64,000 bases of DNA from Candidatus Uhrbacteria bacterium (GTDB lineage Bacteria; Patescibacteriota; Patescibacteriia; 2-12-FULL-60-25). The first letter of the stretch is position 1. Each line of letters starts with the position of its first letter. Both the position numbers and the translations under genes were made by a program. Location of the stretch: the NCBI GenBank assembly GCA_021413945.1, contig JAIOPK010000017.1, positions 62,001 through 126,000 on the forward strand, read 5' to 3'. The notes under the pieces are model-generated. The model had not been told where the DNA came from. It did no database searches and worked only from the letters and a program-made list of their open reading frames with translations. Positions 24,077 to 31,921 of the stretch are shown here, in pieces.

Positions 24077-24163
24077 TTAAGGACCTCTTCGCCGATTGAT
24101 GAAGTGCAGGACGTCATCAATGATGAGCCAGACGAACACGGTCATGGCGATCGCGCTCAGCAT
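24077..24163 (-). CDS. 28-residue single-span membrane peptide
   Basis: Reads MLSAIAMTVFVWLIIDDVLH and ends HFINRRRGP: one hydrophobic helix followed by a basic tail, as in small membrane regulators. Its ATG shares one base with the stop of the upstream 60-residue gene (TGATG), and GAGGAG lies 8 nt before it, so it is translationally coupled. Function unknown. Confidence 0.6.
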   Translation of the reverse strand: MLSAIAMTVFVWLIIDDVLHFINRRRGP

Positions 24164-24345
24164 CAGGGCCGCTCCTCGCCGTCGGGAGCAGGCTCGTCGA
24201 TAGCGGCGGAACCGGACTCGAGAAGCAGACGCACGAGCTGGAGATTCATCTTAACGACGACGGTTTTGTCGTCGTTACCCTCTTCGCTCGTGAGTTCGGG
24301 CGGGGGCCACGTACTGGTCGTATTGGGACGATCTCGTTCGTTCAT
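24163..24345 (-). CDS. small hypothetical protein, 60 residues
   Basis: Strong ribosome site GGAGGTGAACGG before the ATG. N-terminus is polar and proline-rich (TSTWPPPELTSEEGNDD), followed by a short amphipathic helix (VKMNLQLVRLLLESG). No signal peptide. It forms a two-gene operon with the 28-residue membrane peptide. Unrecognised. Confidence 0.65.
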   Translation of the reverse strand: MNERDRPNTTSTWPPPELTSEEGNDDKTVVVKMNLQLVRLLLESGSAAIDEPAPDGEERP

Positions 24346-24366
24346 CCGTTCACCTCCGGGGGAAAA

Positions 24367-24395
24367 ACAATAACAGAAATCATTGATCGTGTCCA
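24367..24395 (-). promoter_or_regulatory. promoter of the 60/28-residue gene pair
   Basis: On the minus strand TGGACA, a 17-bp spacer, TATTGT, ending 21 bp before the start codon. Confidence 0.55.
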
Positions 24396-24411
24396 GGCTG
24401 GGGTACGAACA

Positions 24412-24445
24412 AGCCCCCGTCCCACAGAAATGTGGAACGGGGGCT
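24412..24445 (-). terminator. terminator after the 328-residue gene
   Basis: AGCCCCCGT(T/C)CCAC stem around ATTTCT, 42 bp after the stop at 24487, followed by TTGTTCG on the minus strand. Confidence 0.75.
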
Positions 24446-24486
24446 GTTCAGAGTGTGCCTCGAATTGCTTCGGGGCTCGTTCAGTG

Positions 24487-25473
24487 TCAGGCCTGGGCCT
24501 GGTCGGGGTCGGCGCCTTCGCCGGCCTTCTCCCTGCCCTCGGCCTCGGCCTTGGCCTTCTTGTCGGCCGTCCGCTTCTTGTTGCGGTCGCGCTTCGGCTT
24601 GCCCTCGGCCTTCGCCTCGGGCGCGCCGGCCTCGCCCTCGGCCTTGGCGGCCTGGGGGCGCATCTCGCGCGGGGCGGGCAGGAGCCCGCGCACCTGGTTC
24701 TCCTCGCGGAGACGGATGCCCGAGAACTTGCTCACGACCCGCTGGAAGAACGGCTCGAGCTGCGGGTAGAGACCGAGCAGCATGACGATGCTCTCGGTCG
24801 GCAGGAAGGCGGCGTATCCGAGGGCGTAGAAACCGCCCTTGATGACCGCCACGCGCTTGCCGTCGATCTCGGTGACGCTCGGCGTCGCCGGGTAGCGGCC
24901 AAAGACCACGCCGCTGAACTGGCGGGTCACGCCGCGCGCGTCTTCGCCGACATGCTCCTCGAGCTTCATGCCGACGGCCTGACGGAAGATCGTCCATCCG
25001 TTGCCGGCCTTCTTGGGCTCGCGGTACTCCGCGTTCTCCAGGAAGTAGGACAGCTGACGGATGCTGAAGCTCTCCGTGCGATCGAGGTTGCGATCGTCGG
25101 TCGTCTCCGGCCGCATGCGGTAGCAGGGGACGCGCGTGGGCGCGCCGTCGCCGTTCACCATGGGGAGCTCTTCACCCGACGGGGTGACGTAGATCCCCTC
25201 GATGAGCTTGAGCATGTGCCGGTTGAGACCGCTCATGAGCGCGATGACCTCCTTGAGGTCCTTGTCGTTCGTGCAGCGGTCACGTCCGAAGACGTGCATC
25301 GCGACCTGGGCCGAGAGGGCCATCTTGCTGCTGTCGGCTCCGGCGGTCTCGATGACCGCGGCCTCGAGCTGATTGCTCACGCGCCACTGGAAGCGGTGCG
25401 TGAACAGCGCCTGCTCGGCATCTGCCGACGGCATCGGGAACACGAACTGGACGGAGGGCTTCTTCTGGGTCAC
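24487..25473 (-). CDS. hypothetical protein with disordered charged tail
   Basis: 328 residues from the GTG at 25473 (GTGACCCAG), preferred because AGAGG precedes it by four bases; in-frame ATGs upstream at 25551 and 25539 lack spacing for a ribosome site. The folded part (1-280) mixes helices and strands (QFVFPMPSADAEQALFTHRF; DGKRVAVIKGGFYALGYAAF). The last 50 residues are alternating A/K/E/R (KPKRDRNKKRTADKKAKAEA), likely unstructured and nucleic-acid or protein binding (inference). No known domain. It belongs to the leftward accessory block; it uses the GTG-ACC start seen in three other accessory genes. Confidence 0.75.
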   Translation of the reverse strand: MTQKKPSVQFVFPMPSADAEQALFTHRFQWRVSNQLEAAVIETAGADSSKMALSAQVAMHVFGRDRCTNDKDLKEVIALMSGLNRHMLKLIEGIYVTPSGEELPMVNGDGAPTRVPCYRMRPETTDDRNLDRTESFSIRQLSYFLENAEYREPKKAGNGWTIFRQAVGMKLEEHVGEDARGVTRQFSGVVFGRYPATPSVTEIDGKRVAVIKGGFYALGYAAFLPTESIVMLLGLYPQLEPFFQRVVSKFSGIRLREENQVRGLLPAPREMRPQAAKAEGEAGAPEAKAEGKPKRDRNKKRTADKKAKAEAEGREKAGEGADPDQAQA

Positions 25474-25670
25474 GGGGCCTCTTTCTTCCGCTTCTGGCGG
25501 AGTGAAAACTGAACGTTGGGTTAACTTGTGAACGTGCATCCTCTTTTCCATTTCACCGGATTGGAGGTTTCGAGTCGGGGTTGAGACGCGTCATTGTCCG
25601 AGGGTTATGTAACCTCGCAGGGCGTATCAGAGTTCCGCCTAAGCGGACTTCCCCCCGTTCACTTCATCGT

Positions 25671-25700
25671 GTCATTCCAGCGAACGCTGGAATCCAGTGT
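25671..25700. repeat. REP-like palindrome
   Basis: ATTCCAGCG-AA-CGCTGGAAT with flanks GTC and CCAG. It resembles the widespread bacterial TCATTCCCGCGAA-type palindromes. Located between accessory genes, just after a terminator in the direction of transcription. Confidence 0.6.
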
Positions 25701-25720
25701 GATAAAGAGAATGGGTGGAA

Positions 25721-25744
25721 GGCCTCGTTCTGAAGAACGAGGCC
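25721..25744 (-). terminator. terminator after the 246-residue gene
   Basis: Perfect GGCCTCGTTC/GAACGAGGCC stem around a four-base loop, 22 bp after the stop at 25767. Confidence 0.75.
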
Positions 25745-25766
25745 CTCTCGGTGAGAGGTTGAAGGT

Positions 25767-26507
25767 TCAGTGCCGGCGACGCGAGACGGTGGGGGTCTGG
25801 CGATCTTGCCGGCGGTGTGGATCTTGGAGCAGTCCCTCGAGCACCTGAATGCGTGCTTCGAGTCGCTTGCGTCCGTTGTCGCGCAGGTCGTAGAACGACT
25901 GTTCCATCCGCCGGAAGTGCTTGAGGGCACCGTCCAACTTCTGGATCAAGACGTCTTCCGGATGCACGACGCGGCGGACCTTGAGGTTCGGAACCAAGTC
26001 GAGATCCCAGGGATCCTTCTTGGGCGTGACCTCGTGCTTGACCGCTGTTTCGACAGCCATGCGTCCCGCCGTCTCCGCTTCCGATCCGCTCGAGCCCGCG
26101 GCAAGGGTCTGGAGGGCGGCCGCTTTCACGGAAGCCCTGTCCTTGATCTTGCTCGGGGGCGAATACTGGAGCGGTGCGGTGCGGAATGCTTCGAGGGCAG
26201 CTTGGACGAGGTCGTCGTCGCCGCGGTCGCGAAGCGAGTTCACCATCGGCTCGAGGACCTTGTAGTCCATGCCGCGGATGTTGGGAGCGAGCTCGCGCAG
26301 CCTCTTCAGGCCGTGGATCCCGTTCTCGTGCGCGTATGCGTCGAGCTGGTGGCCGACGAGCCGGAGCTCGTTCTCGAAGTTCTCGTACTCGACGAGTGCG
26401 TCCTTGTACGACTGGATCAGGCAGTGATAGCCGAGCCAGTTGTCGTCGTACAGGAGATCGTCGACGCTCGAGTCTTCGTCGTCACGCATGACGAATGCGG
26501 GCATCAT
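25767..26507 (-). CDS. hypothetical coiled-coil-rich protein
   Basis: 246 residues, mostly charged helices (YKDALVEYENFENELRLVGH; LDGALKHFRRMEQSFYDLRD), an acidic N-terminus and a basic C-terminus (HRRQDRQTPTVSRRRH). No signal peptide or membrane span, so cytoplasmic. The ATG overlaps the stop of the upstream gene (ATGA), implying translational coupling. Unrecognised. Confidence 0.75.
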   Translation of the reverse strand: MMPAFVMRDDEDSSVDDLLYDDNWLGYHCLIQSYKDALVEYENFENELRLVGHQLDAYAHENGIHGLKRLRELAPNIRGMDYKVLEPMVNSLRDRGDDDLVQAALEAFRTAPLQYSPPSKIKDRASVKAAALQTLAAGSSGSEAETAGRMAVETAVKHEVTPKKDPWDLDLVPNLKVRRVVHPEDVLIQKLDGALKHFRRMEQSFYDLRDNGRKRLEARIQVLEGLLQDPHRRQDRQTPTVSRRRH

Positions 26508-27010
26508 GATCGCCCCCTTGCGTTGGGCTCGCCGATCATCTCGGTGAGGTTGCGGGGAGCGAGGTCAAACGCTTCGCGCCGCAGGAGCGCCCGCTTCTTG
26601 GACAGATCTTCCGGCAAGCCGTTGATCTGATCCTCGAGGTCGGCGATGCGGCGGTCGCGCGAGCGGGGAGAAGCCCCCACAAGCGCGAGGACGAGATCAC
26701 CCGCCTCGCGTTCCGCGAGACGGCGCTGGAGACGGGCGGCGACTTCCTGTCGCAGACCGTTCCGGAGCAGATCCTCGGTGGGCGGATGAGCCACCTCCGA
26801 GAAACCGCTCGCGTCACTCGGCTCGCTCTCGGCTCCGTCGTAGGAGGCCAGGGAGAGCTCCGCGTCCATGCCGTCGAGATCGATGTCCTCGGCGGCAAGT
26901 CGCGGGGGAATCCCGTCGTCGGGATCGAAGGGTCCGTTGGTATACGGATCCTCCGCGCGGTTCTTGGCAGACCATCGGTCGGCCGTCGTTACGAAATAAC
27001 CTTTGGTCAC
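26504..27010 (-). CDS. hypothetical acidic protein
   Basis: 168 residues from the GTG at 27010 (GTGACCAAAGG), preceded by GGAGG; a longer in-frame start at 27166 runs through the leader. The first 85 residues are acidic and loop-rich (DPDDGIPPRLAAEDIDLDGM), the rest a charged helix (LEDQINGLPEDLSKKRALLR). Co-translated with the 246-residue gene by ATGA overlap. Function unknown. Confidence 0.72.
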   Translation of the reverse strand: MTKGYFVTTADRWSAKNRAEDPYTNGPFDPDDGIPPRLAAEDIDLDGMDAELSLASYDGAESEPSDASGFSEVAHPPTEDLLRNGLRQEVAARLQRRLAEREAGDLVLALVGASPRSRDRRIADLEDQINGLPEDLSKKRALLRREAFDLAPRNLTEMIGEPNARGRS

Positions 27011-27224
27011 TGTGCCTCCGTGTCTTGGGTTTGAATTCGTTTCCGGAGCAAAAGCCCCAGCAGTCGATCCGGAAATTCCTGGAGGTATGCGCCCGTTCCA
27101 AAAGAGGAAGGGCGCAGGAGAGAGTGGCTTGAGAACCTTCGGCGTCCAACCGCAGTCGGAGACCATCGGCTCACAAGCAAATCACCTCCAAGAATTTCCG
27201 GGTCGATAGGGAAACGAACATCAA
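27011..27224 (-). other. leader of the 168/246-residue operon
   Basis: About 215 nt between promoter and GTG, without a credible gene. Two runs that could pair, GGAAATTC (27080) and GAATTTCC (27193), bracket a GCGCCC/GGGCGC-type hairpin near 27090-27115. Confidence 0.4.
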
Positions 27225-27253
27225 AAGATACGGCTTTTTCAGGATTTTGTCAA
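27225..27253 (-). promoter_or_regulatory. promoter of the 168/246-residue operon
   Basis: On the minus strand TTGACA, a 17-bp spacer, TATCTT. The stretch 27254-27351 between it and the next gene shows only a weak GCAGCC/GGCTG hairpin. Confidence 0.7.
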
Positions 27254-27351
27254 TGATGACTGACATCAGCCTGTGAGGGTTGGAATGAGGACTCCAGCCT
27301 TCAGTTGGCTGCCCGACTCATCCAGGATTGGAGAATCGGGAGCAGTGTCCA

Positions 27352-27951
27352 TCATCGGAAACGTTCCCGCAGATGGATTTGGAGATAATTGGTATCTCCG
27401 GTGATCGGAACCGTTGCACGGAAGCGGCACAGGTCGTGCCGAGTGTCCGTGGAACAGGATCCGCCGAGCGTTGGCGCGTAGCGAGTGTCTCCGCCGTAGG
27501 GCGGCGGTATCGCTTCGAGGAGAACGGGGTCGCCATGTGCTTCCACGTGGCGATGCGATCCCTCGCCGACGCTCCGTGCGCCGGTGACGGCACCGTATAG
27601 GATCGGGCGATCGAATCTCGACCAGCCCCATCCATCGTAGTGTCCGTCGATGTCGAAGGACACCTGGACGATTGCGTCTGCGCGATGCACCCCGTTCTCG
27701 ATGCCGAGATCGCTGATGCCCGTCACGCGAACGCGGAGCGTTCCTCCTCGAACCGCAAAGCCGGTGCGTGCCCGCTCGCAGACGATGCGCGTCGTTCCCT
27801 CGAAGCAGTGCTCCTCGGTTGCGTGCGCGTCGAGCGGCAAGTACACGTTGGCCGCCGGCTCAAAGTAGCCTTCGCCGTGGGAGGTGACGTGAAACCCGAT
27901 CAAGGTGATCGCGATCACGGCACCGACCACCCAGAACCAGGGGCCCTTCAT
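27352..27951 (-). CDS. membrane-anchored hypothetical protein
   Basis: 199 residues: a hydrophobic N-terminal anchor (WFWVVGAVIAITLIGFHV, about 5-22) and an external beta-rich domain with four cysteines (HCFEG; RIVCER; GGSCSTDT; DLCRF), probably disulphide-bonded. The ATG overlaps the upstream stop (TGATG). A much longer frame continues upstream to 28932 through two other genes and is not real in full. Unrecognised family. Confidence 0.72.
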   Translation of the reverse strand: MKGPWFWVVGAVIAITLIGFHVTSHGEGYFEPAANVYLPLDAHATEEHCFEGTTRIVCERARTGFAVRGGTLRVRVTGISDLGIENGVHRADAIVQVSFDIDGHYDGWGWSRFDRPILYGAVTGARSVGEGSHRHVEAHGDPVLLEAIPPPYGGDTRYAPTLGGSCSTDTRHDLCRFRATVPITGDTNYLQIHLRERFR

Positions 27952-28112
27952 CAGGCCGACCCCGGCTCGAGGACCTCGAACAGAGGGGTCTCGTCCTCGA
28001 TCTTGGGGAAGGTGAAGAGGGACGACTCCAAGTCGATGAGGGGCTCGGTGCCCTCCGGAACGACGTTGCCGATCTCTTCCTCGATCATGAGCATGAGCGC
28101 GATGGTATCCAT
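27951..28112 (-). CDS. small acidic hypothetical protein, 53 residues
   Basis: Starts MDTIALMLMIEEEIGNVVPE after AGGAGA at 7 nt. The sequence is acidic (EDETPLFEVLEPGSA). The stop overlaps the start of the membrane-anchored gene, so the two are coupled. An earlier in-frame start at 28229 would run through the hairpin module and is rejected. Confidence 0.68.
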   Translation of the reverse strand: MDTIALMLMIEEEIGNVVPEGTEPLIDLESSLFTFPKIEDETPLFEVLEPGSA

Positions 28113-28159
28113 CTTGTCTCCTGTATTTAGGGTCGCGGTCCCGCACATTGCGGAGCGTA

Positions 28160-28232
28160 CGCCCACCTCGTGAATCGAGTGAATCGATTTCCGGGGTAGG
28201 CGCCGTTGGGAGAGAGAATTCTCTCCCAACGG
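28160..28232 (-). ncRNA. two-hairpin intergenic RNA module, copy 3
   Basis: On the minus strand a 13-bp stem CCGTTGGGAGAGA with loop ATTC, then the conserved GGCGCC, then stem CCTACC/GGTGGG enclosing AATCGA-TTCAC-TCGATT. Same order and spacing as the copies at 29185 and 29718, with both sides of each stem changed together. Confidence 0.5.
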
Positions 28233-28241
28233 GCCAGTCGG

Positions 28242-28904
28242 TCAGGTCGTGGCCATGCGCTGCGCGAGATGCGCGGCGAACGGCTTCTGCGTCACGGGGC
28301 GGACGCGGCGGAGCATAGTGAGACGCTCGTCGAGCCGGGCCGCGAGCGCGGTCAGGTTCGCGTCGTTGATGCGCGAGATGTTCGGGTGGCGGAGCCCCTG
28401 CTCGTTCACCTCGTCCATCTTGTCGCGCGTCGTCTCCTCGAGCTCGCTGCGCAGCTCGCTGACGATGACCTCGAGGGTCGCGGTCAGCGTGCCGTCGGGG
28501 AGCGCCTTGCCGCCGGAGAGCGCGTGGAAGCGCTTCTCGAGCGCCTCGCGCATCTCCCGGCGCCGGCTCTCGAGCATGACGCGCTCGAGCTCCGCGACGT
28601 GGATCGGGTGGAGGCGCTTGATGATCGTCTCCGCCTTCTCCGCGATCGTGCGGTAGCTGTCGCACCCCTTGTGGATGCGCGCGAGCACCGCCATCGCCTT
28701 GCGGATCGTGAGCGTGAGCTTGTTGGGGTTCTTGACCCCGAAGCCCTCGAGCAGCTCGCCCTGCGTGATGCGCAGGAAGCCCTCGAGATCGCCGCGGAAG
28801 ACCGCGACGGGGTGCTTGTTCGCATCCTTGATCTCCGTCTGAACGAAGACGCGGATGGCGACGAGCTTGCCGATGAGCGCGGTGAGAAAGCGGGACTTGG
28901 TCAC
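28242..28904 (-). CDS. hypothetical helical protein
   Basis: 220 residues from GTG (GTGACCAAG) with GGAGG four bases upstream. Almost wholly helical and charged (REMREALEKRFHALSGGK; LARIHKGCDSYRTIAEKAET), strongly G+C-rich codons. No signal peptide. Followed 10 bp later by the two-hairpin module. Possibly a structural or DNA-associated protein; this cannot be decided from sequence. Confidence 0.78.
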   Translation of the reverse strand: MTKSRFLTALIGKLVAIRVFVQTEIKDANKHPVAVFRGDLEGFLRITQGELLEGFGVKNPNKLTLTIRKAMAVLARIHKGCDSYRTIAEKAETIIKRLHPIHVAELERVMLESRRREMREALEKRFHALSGGKALPDGTLTATLEVIVSELRSELEETTRDKMDEVNEQGLRHPNISRINDANLTALAARLDERLTMLRRVRPVTQKPFAAHLAQRMATT

Positions 28905-29184
28905 GAGGCCTCCGGTGTTGGTGTCGAGTCACGACGAAATGCCGTGTATCGCACCAAATCGATGGACGAAATTTTCGTCATCCGATTTGGGGCGCTGAGG
29001 GTTCATCTCAGCTATGTGGAAGTTCGCTTTTTGTTAGACCATGACCGGTCAGCGGCTCATCCCAAGTGTTTTAGGGAGAGACTTCGACGGTTGTCGTAGA
29101 CAAGATCTTGGAGCGAATCGCTACTTGAGCCTGTACACGCGCGAGTCCTTTCGTGACAGAGGACAGTGTTGCGGCACCGTCACT

Positions 29185-29255
29185 CCGATCTCGCTGGTCG
29201 AATTTCTTCAACCGTCGGGATCGGCGCCGGAGGAGAGAGTGAAACTCTCCTCCGG
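29185..29255 (-). ncRNA. two-hairpin intergenic RNA module, copy 1
   Basis: On the minus strand CCGGAGGAGAG/CTCTCCTCCGG, then CGCCGATCCCGAC, then GGTTGAA-GAAA-TTCGACC (a GNRA tetraloop), closing with GATCGG that pairs with CCGATC. Fifteen bases after the 122-residue gene. Bases 28905-29184 hold no convincing gene. Confidence 0.55.
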
Positions 29256-29270
29256 AACTGCGGTACTGTC

Positions 29271-29639
29271 TTACGGGATACACAGGAGGAGGAAGCCCTC
29301 TTGAGTGAGATACTCAAGGAATCCGAGACGCGTGATCCTTCGGTCATACGCTGACTGCCAGGCCCTCCGGAGCGACTCACAGCGCAGGGCTCGGCACGCG
29401 TCCATGACCGCGATTCCGTGATTCATGTAAAGATCCTCGAATTCGTCATCGCTCATCTGTGCGAGCCGATGCTCGGCGCTATCCGAGAGCTTGAAGTCGA
29501 CAGGTCGCAGATTCACGAACTTGAAGACCGGATGCTCGTGGAGTTTGGTGATCACGCCGATGTAGCGCGCAGTCAGCCTCCCGAGTGCAGCCTTGCGGTC
29601 GGTGAGCTGATCGGAACGTTTGTTGGCGGACATCTTCAT
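29271..29639 (-). CDS. hypothetical protein, 122 residues
   Basis: Strong ribosome site AAGGAGGAAATCAC before the ATG. Basic N-terminus (MKMSANKRSDQLTDRKAALG), then helices with an acidic middle (MSDDEFEDLYMNHGIAVMDA). No membrane span or signal. Sits between two copies of the hairpin module. Unrecognised. Confidence 0.74.
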   Translation of the reverse strand: MKMSANKRSDQLTDRKAALGRLTARYIGVITKLHEHPVFKFVNLRPVDFKLSDSAEHRLAQMSDDEFEDLYMNHGIAVMDACRALRCESLRRAWQSAYDRRITRLGFLEYLTQEGFLLLCIP

Positions 29640-29717
29640 GTGATTTCCTCCTTATGAGGATGGTTTATGTATGGAGACAGTCGAGATTTGAATCTCATCG
29701 GCTCGTTTAGTGAAGGT

Positions 29718-29788
29718 CCGATCTCGCTTGTCGAACGTGCGTTCAACAGTCGGGATCGGCGCCGGAGGAAGTAGTTACTTCCTCCGGC
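29718..29788 (-). ncRNA. two-hairpin intergenic RNA module, copy 2
   Basis: On the minus strand GCCGGAGGAAGTA/TACTTCCTCCGGC, then CGCCGATCCCGAC, then TGTTGAAC-GCAC-GTTCGACA, closing with GATCGG. Compared with copy 1 the outer sequence is identical while the inner stem and first hairpin change on both sides. About 200 bp after the 202-residue gene. Confidence 0.55.
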
Positions 29789-29986
29789 ATCAGGTCGGGA
29801 CACTGCTTTCCCAGGCTCCCCATTGGTCAACGGGGACAGATATCTGTTTTTTCGCGTAGCGATTAAACAGAGACAAACGCTATGTTCAGTCGCGGCCGCA
29901 AGCCGCTAGATTTCCAAAGGAGCACCTCATCTTCTGTAACCAAGTCCGATTCCGTCGGTACCGCGGTTGTCAGTCTTCCGACCGAC

Positions 29987-30595
29987 TCAGGCTGCGCGCG
30001 TCACGGCCCTCGGCTCCTTGGCCTTGGGCTTGGTCGCGGCGACCTGCACCGTCAGGAGGAGATCCTGGAGATCCGCGTAGCGGGCCTCCATCTCCTGCTT
30101 CGAGGCGTTCGCCTCGACGCCGACGACGGTGAGCTTGGCCTGCATCGCCTTCTCGTAGACGTTGATCGACCTCACGGTCGACTGCATCTTGGAGAAGAAC
30201 GCCGCCTGCCTCATCCCGATCTCCTGCTCGCACCGATCGAAGATCTCTTCGGTCGACATGCGCCGGAGCTGCTCGGGCTTGGCGCCGAGCCGCATGGCCT
30301 CCTGGTAGGCCTCGGTGCGGCGGTGCTTCCGCGCGTTCAAGCGCTTGGACACCACGACGAGGGCCCAATTGGCCATCCGGTACGGACATCCGCCACCCGA
30401 GAGGTGGACGACGATGAACGCGGCGCGGAAGAGGGTCGGGTCGCTCTCGCCCTTGAGCTCGAGCGTCTGGGAGACCTCGCCCCTGTTGAAGGCGGGGCAC
30501 TCGCCCTGCTGGACCATTCCCTCGCGGACGGTCCGGCCGTCCGGGTTGGAGATGATCGCAGCGAGGGCATCGAGCTTGAGCCTGAAATTCGACAT
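29987..30595 (-). CDS. hypothetical helical protein, 202 residues
   Basis: Start at 30595 chosen for GGAG five bases before the ATG. Helical, with a basic C-terminus (KPKAKEPRAVTRAA). The region CPYRMANWALVVVSKRLNARKHRRTEAYQEA suggests a helix-rich nucleic-acid-binding or structural protein, but no family is recognised. Its leader holds two mutually exclusive hairpins. Confidence 0.75.
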   Translation of the reverse strand: MSNFRLKLDALAAIISNPDGRTVREGMVQQGECPAFNRGEVSQTLELKGESDPTLFRAAFIVVHLSGGGCPYRMANWALVVVSKRLNARKHRRTEAYQEAMRLGAKPEQLRRMSTEEIFDRCEQEIGMRQAAFFSKMQSTVRSINVYEKAMQAKLTVVGVEANASKQEMEARYADLQDLLLTVQVAATKPKAKEPRAVTRAA

Positions 30596-30639
30596 GTTGA
30601 CTCCGTCTGGGTTGGAAGGTTGAAAGTTGTTGTCGCGTG

Positions 30640-30701
30640 CCACACGTTCGATCGAGAACAAAATATTCTCTGCCGAACGTGTGGAACGGGACGTTCCACA
30701 C
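30640..30701 (-). promoter_or_regulatory. switch-like leader of the 202-residue gene
   Basis: Two strong hairpins share the CCACACG segment. One is CGTGTGGAACG/CGTTCCACACG (30678-30702 region). The other is CCACACGTTCG/CGAACGTGTGG with an inner GAGAA/TTCTC stem (30640-30684). Both cannot form at once. The start codon lies about 45 nt further on. Confidence 0.5.
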
Positions 30702-31383
30702 GGGGGTTTGAAAGGTCAATCCGTTTTTTAGGCGGACAGGTGTAAGGAAGAAGGCGGTAAGAACCGAAGTTCGTTCCGCGGTGTGGAGCGCTTGATTCGA
30801 GAGACGCAGATTGCTCCGCCTCTTTCGAGTTAACGTTCCGTCCGTTCGGATGCCCGTGTTCGGGTCCGATCGGGGTTCTTCCATACGCCTGTCAGCCCTG
30901 AGCTCGTCGAAGTATTCCGACGAACGCATTGGAGGTGGATGGTCCGCACTGGTCCGAAGACCGGCAGATCCGAGAAGTCGAGCATTGAGTGGTCCCAGAC
31001 GAATCCGAGTCCACACAACACGCGAGCATCTACTCTGACTTGCGTCAGAGACTCCCTCCTCCAGTGCCTTCGTCCGAAAAAACAAAACAAGACGCTTGGG
31101 GCGTCTCGGTCGGTGCGTTAACAAGACCTCCGCTAGCTTCTAAAAAAAGAAGTAGCAGTCTTAGGTCTCGTCTCAGCTCTCCTTCCAAGACGAATATTAT
31201 TATGTGAAATGCGTTTCCGCAGATCAGACTTCCGACAGAGTCGGAAACCTGAGAGCGGAGCCGAGTGTGTAACCACTGCGGCTCAAGAGAAAAGGAACGG
31301 GTTAGCTTGTTATGTCTTGCGACGGGTCATCTTTGTTGAAAGCCTTGCTCTCAAAGGTGTTGGACCTTCCAACCTCTTCGCGA
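30702..31383 (-). other. non-coding, hairpin-rich spacer
   Basis: No frame here has a ribosome site or protein-like composition. Visible structures on the minus strand: CTCTGAC-GCAA-GTCAGAG at 31028-31047, TTCCGAC-TCT-GTCGGAA near 31228-31244, and the terminator at 31077-31108. A CAGCCCTGAGCTCGTCGAAG sequence at 30894 resembles a dispersed repeat. Confidence 0.5.
31077..31108 (-). terminator. internal terminator in the accessory leader region
   Basis: GAGACGC-CCCAA-GCGTCTTG followed by TTTTGTTTTTT on the minus strand, about 275 bp after the 65-residue gene. Transcripts from the 31.68 kb promoter may end here. Confidence 0.8.
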
Positions 31384-31581
31384 CTAGTTCAAGTCGCGGA
31401 ACGTGCGGCGCTTCGCCGCGTGGGTGCGCTTCATGCGCCGTCCGTTGCCGATTCGGCCTGCCGAGATCGGCTCGATCTGCGCGTAGCAGATCAGTCCGCC
31501 GGAGCGCGTGGGGCAACGCTTGATGCGCGAGGCGAGGAAGGCGTCGATCTCCTGCTGGCTGGTCCGGAAGACGCTGATCAT
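31384..31581 (-). CDS. small basic hypothetical protein, 65 residues
   Basis: Starts MISVFRTSQQEIDAFLASRI after GAGGTG; a GTG two codons earlier is also possible. Very basic C-terminus (GNGRRMKRTHAAKRRTFRDL), suggesting nucleic-acid binding. First gene downstream of the twin-type promoter at 31657-31685. Unrecognised. Confidence 0.7.
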   Translation of the reverse strand: MISVFRTSQQEIDAFLASRIKRCPTRSGGLICYAQIEPISAGRIGNGRRMKRTHAAKRRTFRDLN

Positions 31582-31656
31582 GGGCACCTCGTGGTGTTGG
31601 TTGGGAAGGCGTTTCCGACGACTTGGTCCCTTTCAGGTTAGTCATCGTAACCAAAT

Positions 31657-31685
31657 ACTATAGCACATAGCCAAGATTTTGTCAA
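31657..31685 (-). promoter_or_regulatory. strong leftward promoter (twin of the 55.26 kb promoter)
   Basis: On the minus strand TTGACA, a 17-bp spacer ending TGTGC, then TATAGT. The extended -10 and flanking bases closely match the promoter at 55261. A TAGCCAA lies in the spacer. Confidence 0.8.
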
Positions 31686-31887
31686 GTAAGGTGAACAAAT
31701 ACAAAGTTAGCCAAATTGGCTAAGAATAGTTACAAAACTGTACATCTCTGAATAGATGTTATTAGTTCGTAACAAAAATAGTGCTTAAGTTAGCCCAATC
31801 TGTGGATAAGCTAATCTTAGCCAAAAGCTAGACAGACATCTTTTGCCTTACATTAGCCATATTTGACTTATGTTCCGTTTTAGCCAA
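31669..31887. promoter_or_regulatory. TTAGCCAA operator-like array
   Basis: TTAGCCAA or close variants at 31668, 31707 (with its mirror TTGGCTAA at 31716, a perfect palindrome), 31790, 31817, 31853 and 31880. AT-rich surroundings. Lies between the leftward accessory promoter and the rpoB promoter, so it could control either. Confidence 0.6.
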
Positions 31888-31892
31888 ATAGC

Positions 31893-31921
31893 TTGACTAT
31901 CTCCATCTCTCATGATAAATT
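31893..31921 (+). promoter_or_regulatory. candidate rpoB promoter
   Basis: TTGACT, a 17-bp spacer, TAAATT, about 265 bp before the rpoB start. Confidence 0.5.

Follow-up and report, generated by a model that had tools for sequence, protein, structure and literature searches.

A conserved, covarying two-hairpin element at cistron boundaries in Candidatus Uhrbacteria

An orphan-gene operon with three module copies

The window, by which we mean the whole stretch of 64,000 nucleotides that was analysed, carries at positions 24163-31900 a block of orphan genes located between recA-ftsK-rodZ-like genes and rpoB and transcribed against both flanks (Table 1). Within this block, a ~70-base RNA module composed of two side-by-side hairpins (hairpin 1 and hairpin 2) occurs on the minus strand at all three places where an earlier note on this DNA had claimed it. 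Folding confirmed the claimed order of parts in the window copies, a long hairpin of 11-13 bp first and hairpin 2 after it: hairpin 1 has 12 bp and hairpin 2 has 6 + 2 + 8 bp in copy A (z = -9.8), 11 bp and 6 + 2 + 7 bp in copy B (z = -5.6), and 13 bp and 8 + 2 + 6 bp in copy C (z = -8.0), where the z-scores were computed against dinucleotide shuffles. The free energies of the three copies range from -43.7 to -49.5 kcal/mol, and 0 of 200 shuffles were as stable. The changes said to occur on both sides of the stems are real in the window copies. The GGCGCC that had been called conserved is common to these three copies but is not kept in the wider family; the parts conserved elsewhere are a C.A position in the lower stem of hairpin 2 and UGA/UCG pairs, which the earlier note did not contain. 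A candidate degenerate fourth copy has a short hairpin 1, carries CGA/UCG in hairpin 2 and is followed by a start codon 48 nt on. In a search of this 1.05-Mb genome with the seed pattern GGCGCCNNNCCC, the fold was found at the three window copies and at no other fetched site.

Table 1. Features of the operon in the window (R2 and R3 are covariance models, see text).
Feature	Position	Strand	Details
Strong promoter-like site, TG before the -10	31657..31685	-	11/12 consensus positions; sequence match only
Gene before copy A, 202 aa, orphan helical protein	29987..30595	-	orthologue in G001
Module copy A	29718..29788	-	hairpin 1 29788-29761; hairpin 2 29759-29718; found by fold and R2
Gene between copies A and B, 122 aa, orphan	29271..29639	-	no Pfam match
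Module copy B	29185..29255	-	hairpin 1 29255-29227; hairpin 2 29224-29185, GAAA loop; found by fold and R2
Candidate degenerate fourth copy	28953..29012	-	R2 20.6 bits, R3 20.9 bits, fold z -5.8; marginal
Gene between copies B and C, 220 aa, orphan helical protein	28242..28904	-	homologues in G001 and G011
Module copy C	28160..28232	-	hairpin 1 28232-28203; hairpin 2 28202-28160; found by fold and R2
Gene after copy C, 53 aa	27951..28112	-	ORF; ribosome-binding site 49 nt past module
Gene, 199 aa, N-terminal hydrophobic segment	27352..27951	-	ORF; start overlaps stop of preceding gene
Second promoter-like site, past the module-bearing genes	27225..27253	-	10/12 consensus positions, matched on sequence alone

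The stronger promoter-like site is presumed to be the start of a transcription unit. Because promoter-like sites lie before the block and beyond the modules, the three copies appear to fall within one transcription unit. About 550 nt past the stronger site, in the leader, a terminator-like hairpin with a T-run is located at 31108-31088 on the minus strand and is possibly a leader attenuator. The leader of the 202-aa gene also contains a single hairpin, long and interrupted by a 2x2 internal loop (30625-30710, minus strand; z = -5.4), which resembles an enlarged hairpin 2. Far from the block, palindromes with TGTTTCACGTGAAACA are present at 181-202 and 536-559; TGTTTCACGTGAAACA matches the ParB-binding parS consensus, and the start of the window may lie near the replication origin.

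The orphan genes of the block change very fast between species. Ordinary BLAST searches with the block genes found no relatives, and Pfam, PHROGs and NCBIfam gave no reliable match for the operon proteins. A search of the 143 other genomes gave no relative of the 122-aa gene. For the 220-aa gene, a more sensitive search found homologues with adjoining modules in G001 and G011 (E = 1e-13 to 1e-17). G001, which is of the same genus, also has an orthologue of the 202-aa gene, 27% identical from end to end and likewise followed by a module. Among the intergenic positions at which modules match between genomes is the gap past the 202-aa gene, which is unusually long at about 200-270 nt. The predicted structures of the 202-aa and 220-aa proteins are all-helical or nearly so (moderate confidence), and the two proteins may be distant paralogues (hhalign E = 1.7e-4, probability only 50%). 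Since modules hold matching intergenic positions beside homologous genes in G000, G001 and G011, they have passed down vertically together with the operon, unlike mobile cassettes. The homology of the operon genes between genomes led us to reject a gene-cassette model.

Covariation and distribution among genomes

The first covariance model (R1) was built from the three window copies; it gave no further convincing copy in their own genome but did match relatives elsewhere in the same family, whose named records are Candidatus Uhrbacteria. A second model, R2, rests on 19 copies taken from the family's other genomes and on none from the window, its members having been initially chosen and aligned with R1. 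R2 recovers window copies B, A and C at 75.4, 65.9 and 53.9 bits (E = 6e-14 to 2e-9, values that are rough owing to a short calibration). This recovery supports the window copies from outside sequences, though the R2 members were picked via R1. At E <= 0.1, R2 matches occur in 26 of the 40 family genomes, usually 1-5 per genome, so that the absence from relatives that would have spoken against the module was looked for and not found. R2 and R3 matches are sparse in other families of the class, for example in G159, G167, G081, G054 and G157; beyond the class, copies were found in G515, a genome of another class of the phylum, with stop codons 18 and 6 nt upstream. The members of R3 include copies from G159, G167, G081 and G124, and none from G054, G157, G098 or G515. 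A DNA similarity search in the genus found nothing outside this genome, and hand-made tandem-hairpin descriptors were dropped for excess background in GC-rich coding DNA.

Further loci carry modules too, with orphan genes as neighbours in most cases, and some loci form arrays of up to five or six copies. An IS110-type transposase gene lies near one module copy (L180, G026:C37, 6745-8316). That the module is confined to few loci in each genome, mainly adjoining orphan genes, points to a regulon more than to mRNA processing in general and counts against the processing role favored below.

The copies share a mean identity of 41%. In a model-fitted alignment of 54 copies, 95.5% of the cells pair, compared with 55% in shuffled and 35-48% in slid alignments, and two-sided changes are present at all 26 pairs. 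As such an alignment leans to structure, hairpin 2 was recounted on 50 copies aligned with plain MAFFT and not fitted to structure: 91.7% of the cells are paired (59% shuffled, 30-48% slid), the covariation score is 0.89 versus 0.27, and all 15 pairs have changed on both sides. The covariance analysis that the earlier note proposed has thus revealed very strong two-sided covariation, and its first reading of a repeated two-hairpin RNA module is borne out in most of the sampled family genomes. Across many species the shape persists although almost every letter changes, which indicates a real and apparently undescribed mRNA element.

Hairpin 1 is free in sequence across the copies. Hairpin 2 is nearly fixed in length, at about two helical turns, and follows one plan: six to seven outer pairs, a C.A or U-A position, two pairs, a 2x2 internal loop, and a stem that ends under the loop in 5'-UGA/UCG-3' with a U.G wobble. 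Base preferences were counted in 77 sense copies, 54 of them strong and the remainder weaker, possibly with a few false ones. Pair 102:158 is C.A in 46 copies, U-A in 19, C-G in 9 and U.G in 1, and the pairs by the loop are U.G in 45 of the 77 copies (110:148), G-C in 61 (111:147) and A-U in 70 (112:146). Preferences as one-sided as these suggest that a partner recognises hairpin 2 and that stability is not the whole reason for them.

Position relative to genes and comparison with known elements

Modules sit between co-directional genes, following a stop codon and preceding a start codon. A same-strand stop codon lies at most 100 nt upstream in 56% of the copies, versus 12% in antisense and 7% at shifted positions, and a start codon lies at most 90 nt downstream in 39%, versus 6% and 8%, respectively; genes were called for these counts by a simple ribosome-binding-site rule. 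What we observe, in Uhrbacteria and sparsely outside them, is therefore a two-hairpin element that is conserved, covaries, runs in the direction of the genes and lies at cistron boundaries. The fold, the covariation, the orientation along genes and the intercistronic position together argue that the module acts as RNA, within mRNA. We tentatively read it as an intercistronic mRNA element that would mark where a cistron ends, so that the message can be processed or stabilised there, a reading to which, judging from sequence patterns, we would give nearly even weight.

A U-tract intrinsic terminator was rejected, since at least five T in the 8 nt past hairpin 2 are found in only 2 of the 77 copies; the lack of a U-tract and the location between co-directional genes bear out the earlier distinction from ordinary single-stem terminators. 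The module could instead be a tandem terminator that works without a U-tract and ends or attenuates transcription after each gene. V-shaped terminators, consecutive hairpins without separation after a stop codon, are already a described class (PMC8355165), and the module has their shape, with two adjacent hairpins, little or no spacer and a stop codon shortly before, termination itself being only putative. Unlike them, it has a fixed hairpin-2 architecture with the conserved C.A and UGA/UCG pairs, a signature that a generic terminator would not need, and it is restricted to a few copies at few operons per genome, often upstream of another gene, as in the 39% of copies with a near start codon. 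Palindromic hairpins with A- and T-runs are also present elsewhere in the window. We consider a V-shaped terminator unlikely.

It is also improbable, to our judgement, that the module is a binding site for the orphan helical proteins of the same operon, serving autoregulation or a ribonucleoprotein. From genome to genome, modules do accompany one and the same fast-evolving protein family, and the distant resemblance of the two helical proteins would fit such a role; however, modules also adjoin genes without detected relation to those proteins, a fold search with the 202-aa model gave no significant structural match, and Pfam recognised no RNA-binding domain in the operon proteins.

A DNA-level element, such as a single-strand-folding recombination site like integron attC, a cruciform or a REP-like mobile repeat, would agree with the energies: the sense strand is lower in free energy in 42 of the 77 copies and the mean difference is -0.6 kcal/mol, so that no strand is favoured and pairing alone cannot separate RNA from single-stranded DNA. 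The module recalls attC in its conserved shape, variable sequence and location past genes, but the core boxes are absent (RYYYAAC and GTTRRRY at the two ends, both found in 0 of 77 copies) and several genes between copies are vertically inherited homologues. Integron attC was therefore rejected, and in place of cassette shuffling, homologous genes keep their modules in G000, G001 and G011. At the curated gathering thresholds of Rfam 15, only tRNAs were found in the window, and the best match of the module copies was to naRNA4 (RF02564) at 27 bits, below the threshold of 59.5. REP/BIME and naRNA4 elements likewise occur as several intergenic hairpin copies after genes, and one module copy gives this weak sub-threshold match; the module differs from them in its almost fully sequence-variable stems, its mostly single orientation relative to genes and a score far below the Rfam cut-off. 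With modules holding their places by homologous genes and not moving with cassettes, we regard a DNA-level element as highly unlikely. A ligand- or protein-sensing 5' leader element of the downstream gene, which the near start codons in 39% of copies would favor, is most improbable, given that the upstream stop codon is the tighter and commoner association, that no conserved single-stranded pocket is seen in the alignment and that Rfam gives no match at gathering score.

A possible role at cistron ends

For the intercistronic mRNA element that we favor, the two hairpins would have separate tasks. Hairpin 1, strong and free in sequence, could be a mechanical barrier that shields the 3' end of the upstream cistron, and hairpin 2 might be read by an RNA-binding protein or by a double-strand ribonuclease such as RNase III, with its near-fixed length, fixed lower mismatch and fixed UGA/UCG pairs by the loop as the features recognised. 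Cutting or binding at hairpin 2 would separate the cistrons and set the output of each fast-evolving gene of the operon. We infer this division of labour, both the protection of an upstream end by hairpin 1 and the reading of hairpin 2 by a protein or RNase III, from the features described above.

In the early mRNA of phage T7, RNase III processes hairpins that lie between the genes of one transcript, span about two helical turns and contain an internal loop. The module resembles them in its two helical turns, internal loop and location between genes of a presumed single transcript, and differs in the extra strong hairpin 1 immediately 5', in the bacterial group and in that cleavage is putative. 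RNase III is encoded in this genome and in most relatives, without a specific link to the module; the module does have the long imperfect helix in intercistronic position, in an RNase III-encoding genome, that an RNase III site would have, cleavage being only putative. A second RNase III gene of this genome is located beside a sigma-factor-like gene (G000:C2:463385-463780, L195), and nearly all relatives have one RNase III gene. A correlation of the module with the second gene was rejected, as that gene is rare in relatives and does not track the module.

Uhrbacteria are ultra-small members of the CPR bacteria, organisms that are mostly uncultured. Our literature search of open-licence papers found no comparable structured cis-acting RNA or such a motif in CPR bacteria. 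It is conceivable, and we hold it with some doubt, that the module represents a cis-acting RNA family not described before, found in Patescibacteria and most densely in Uhrbacteria, whose C.A and UGA/UCG features a dedicated protein would read and which would define a regulon of fast-evolving orphan genes, possibly related to a host-dependent lifestyle. With the covariance model the element is found by its shape, and orphan genes come to light that presumably have a regulatory mark in common and that no protein search links to one another, a case of an RNA shape outlasting both RNA and protein sequence within one operon.
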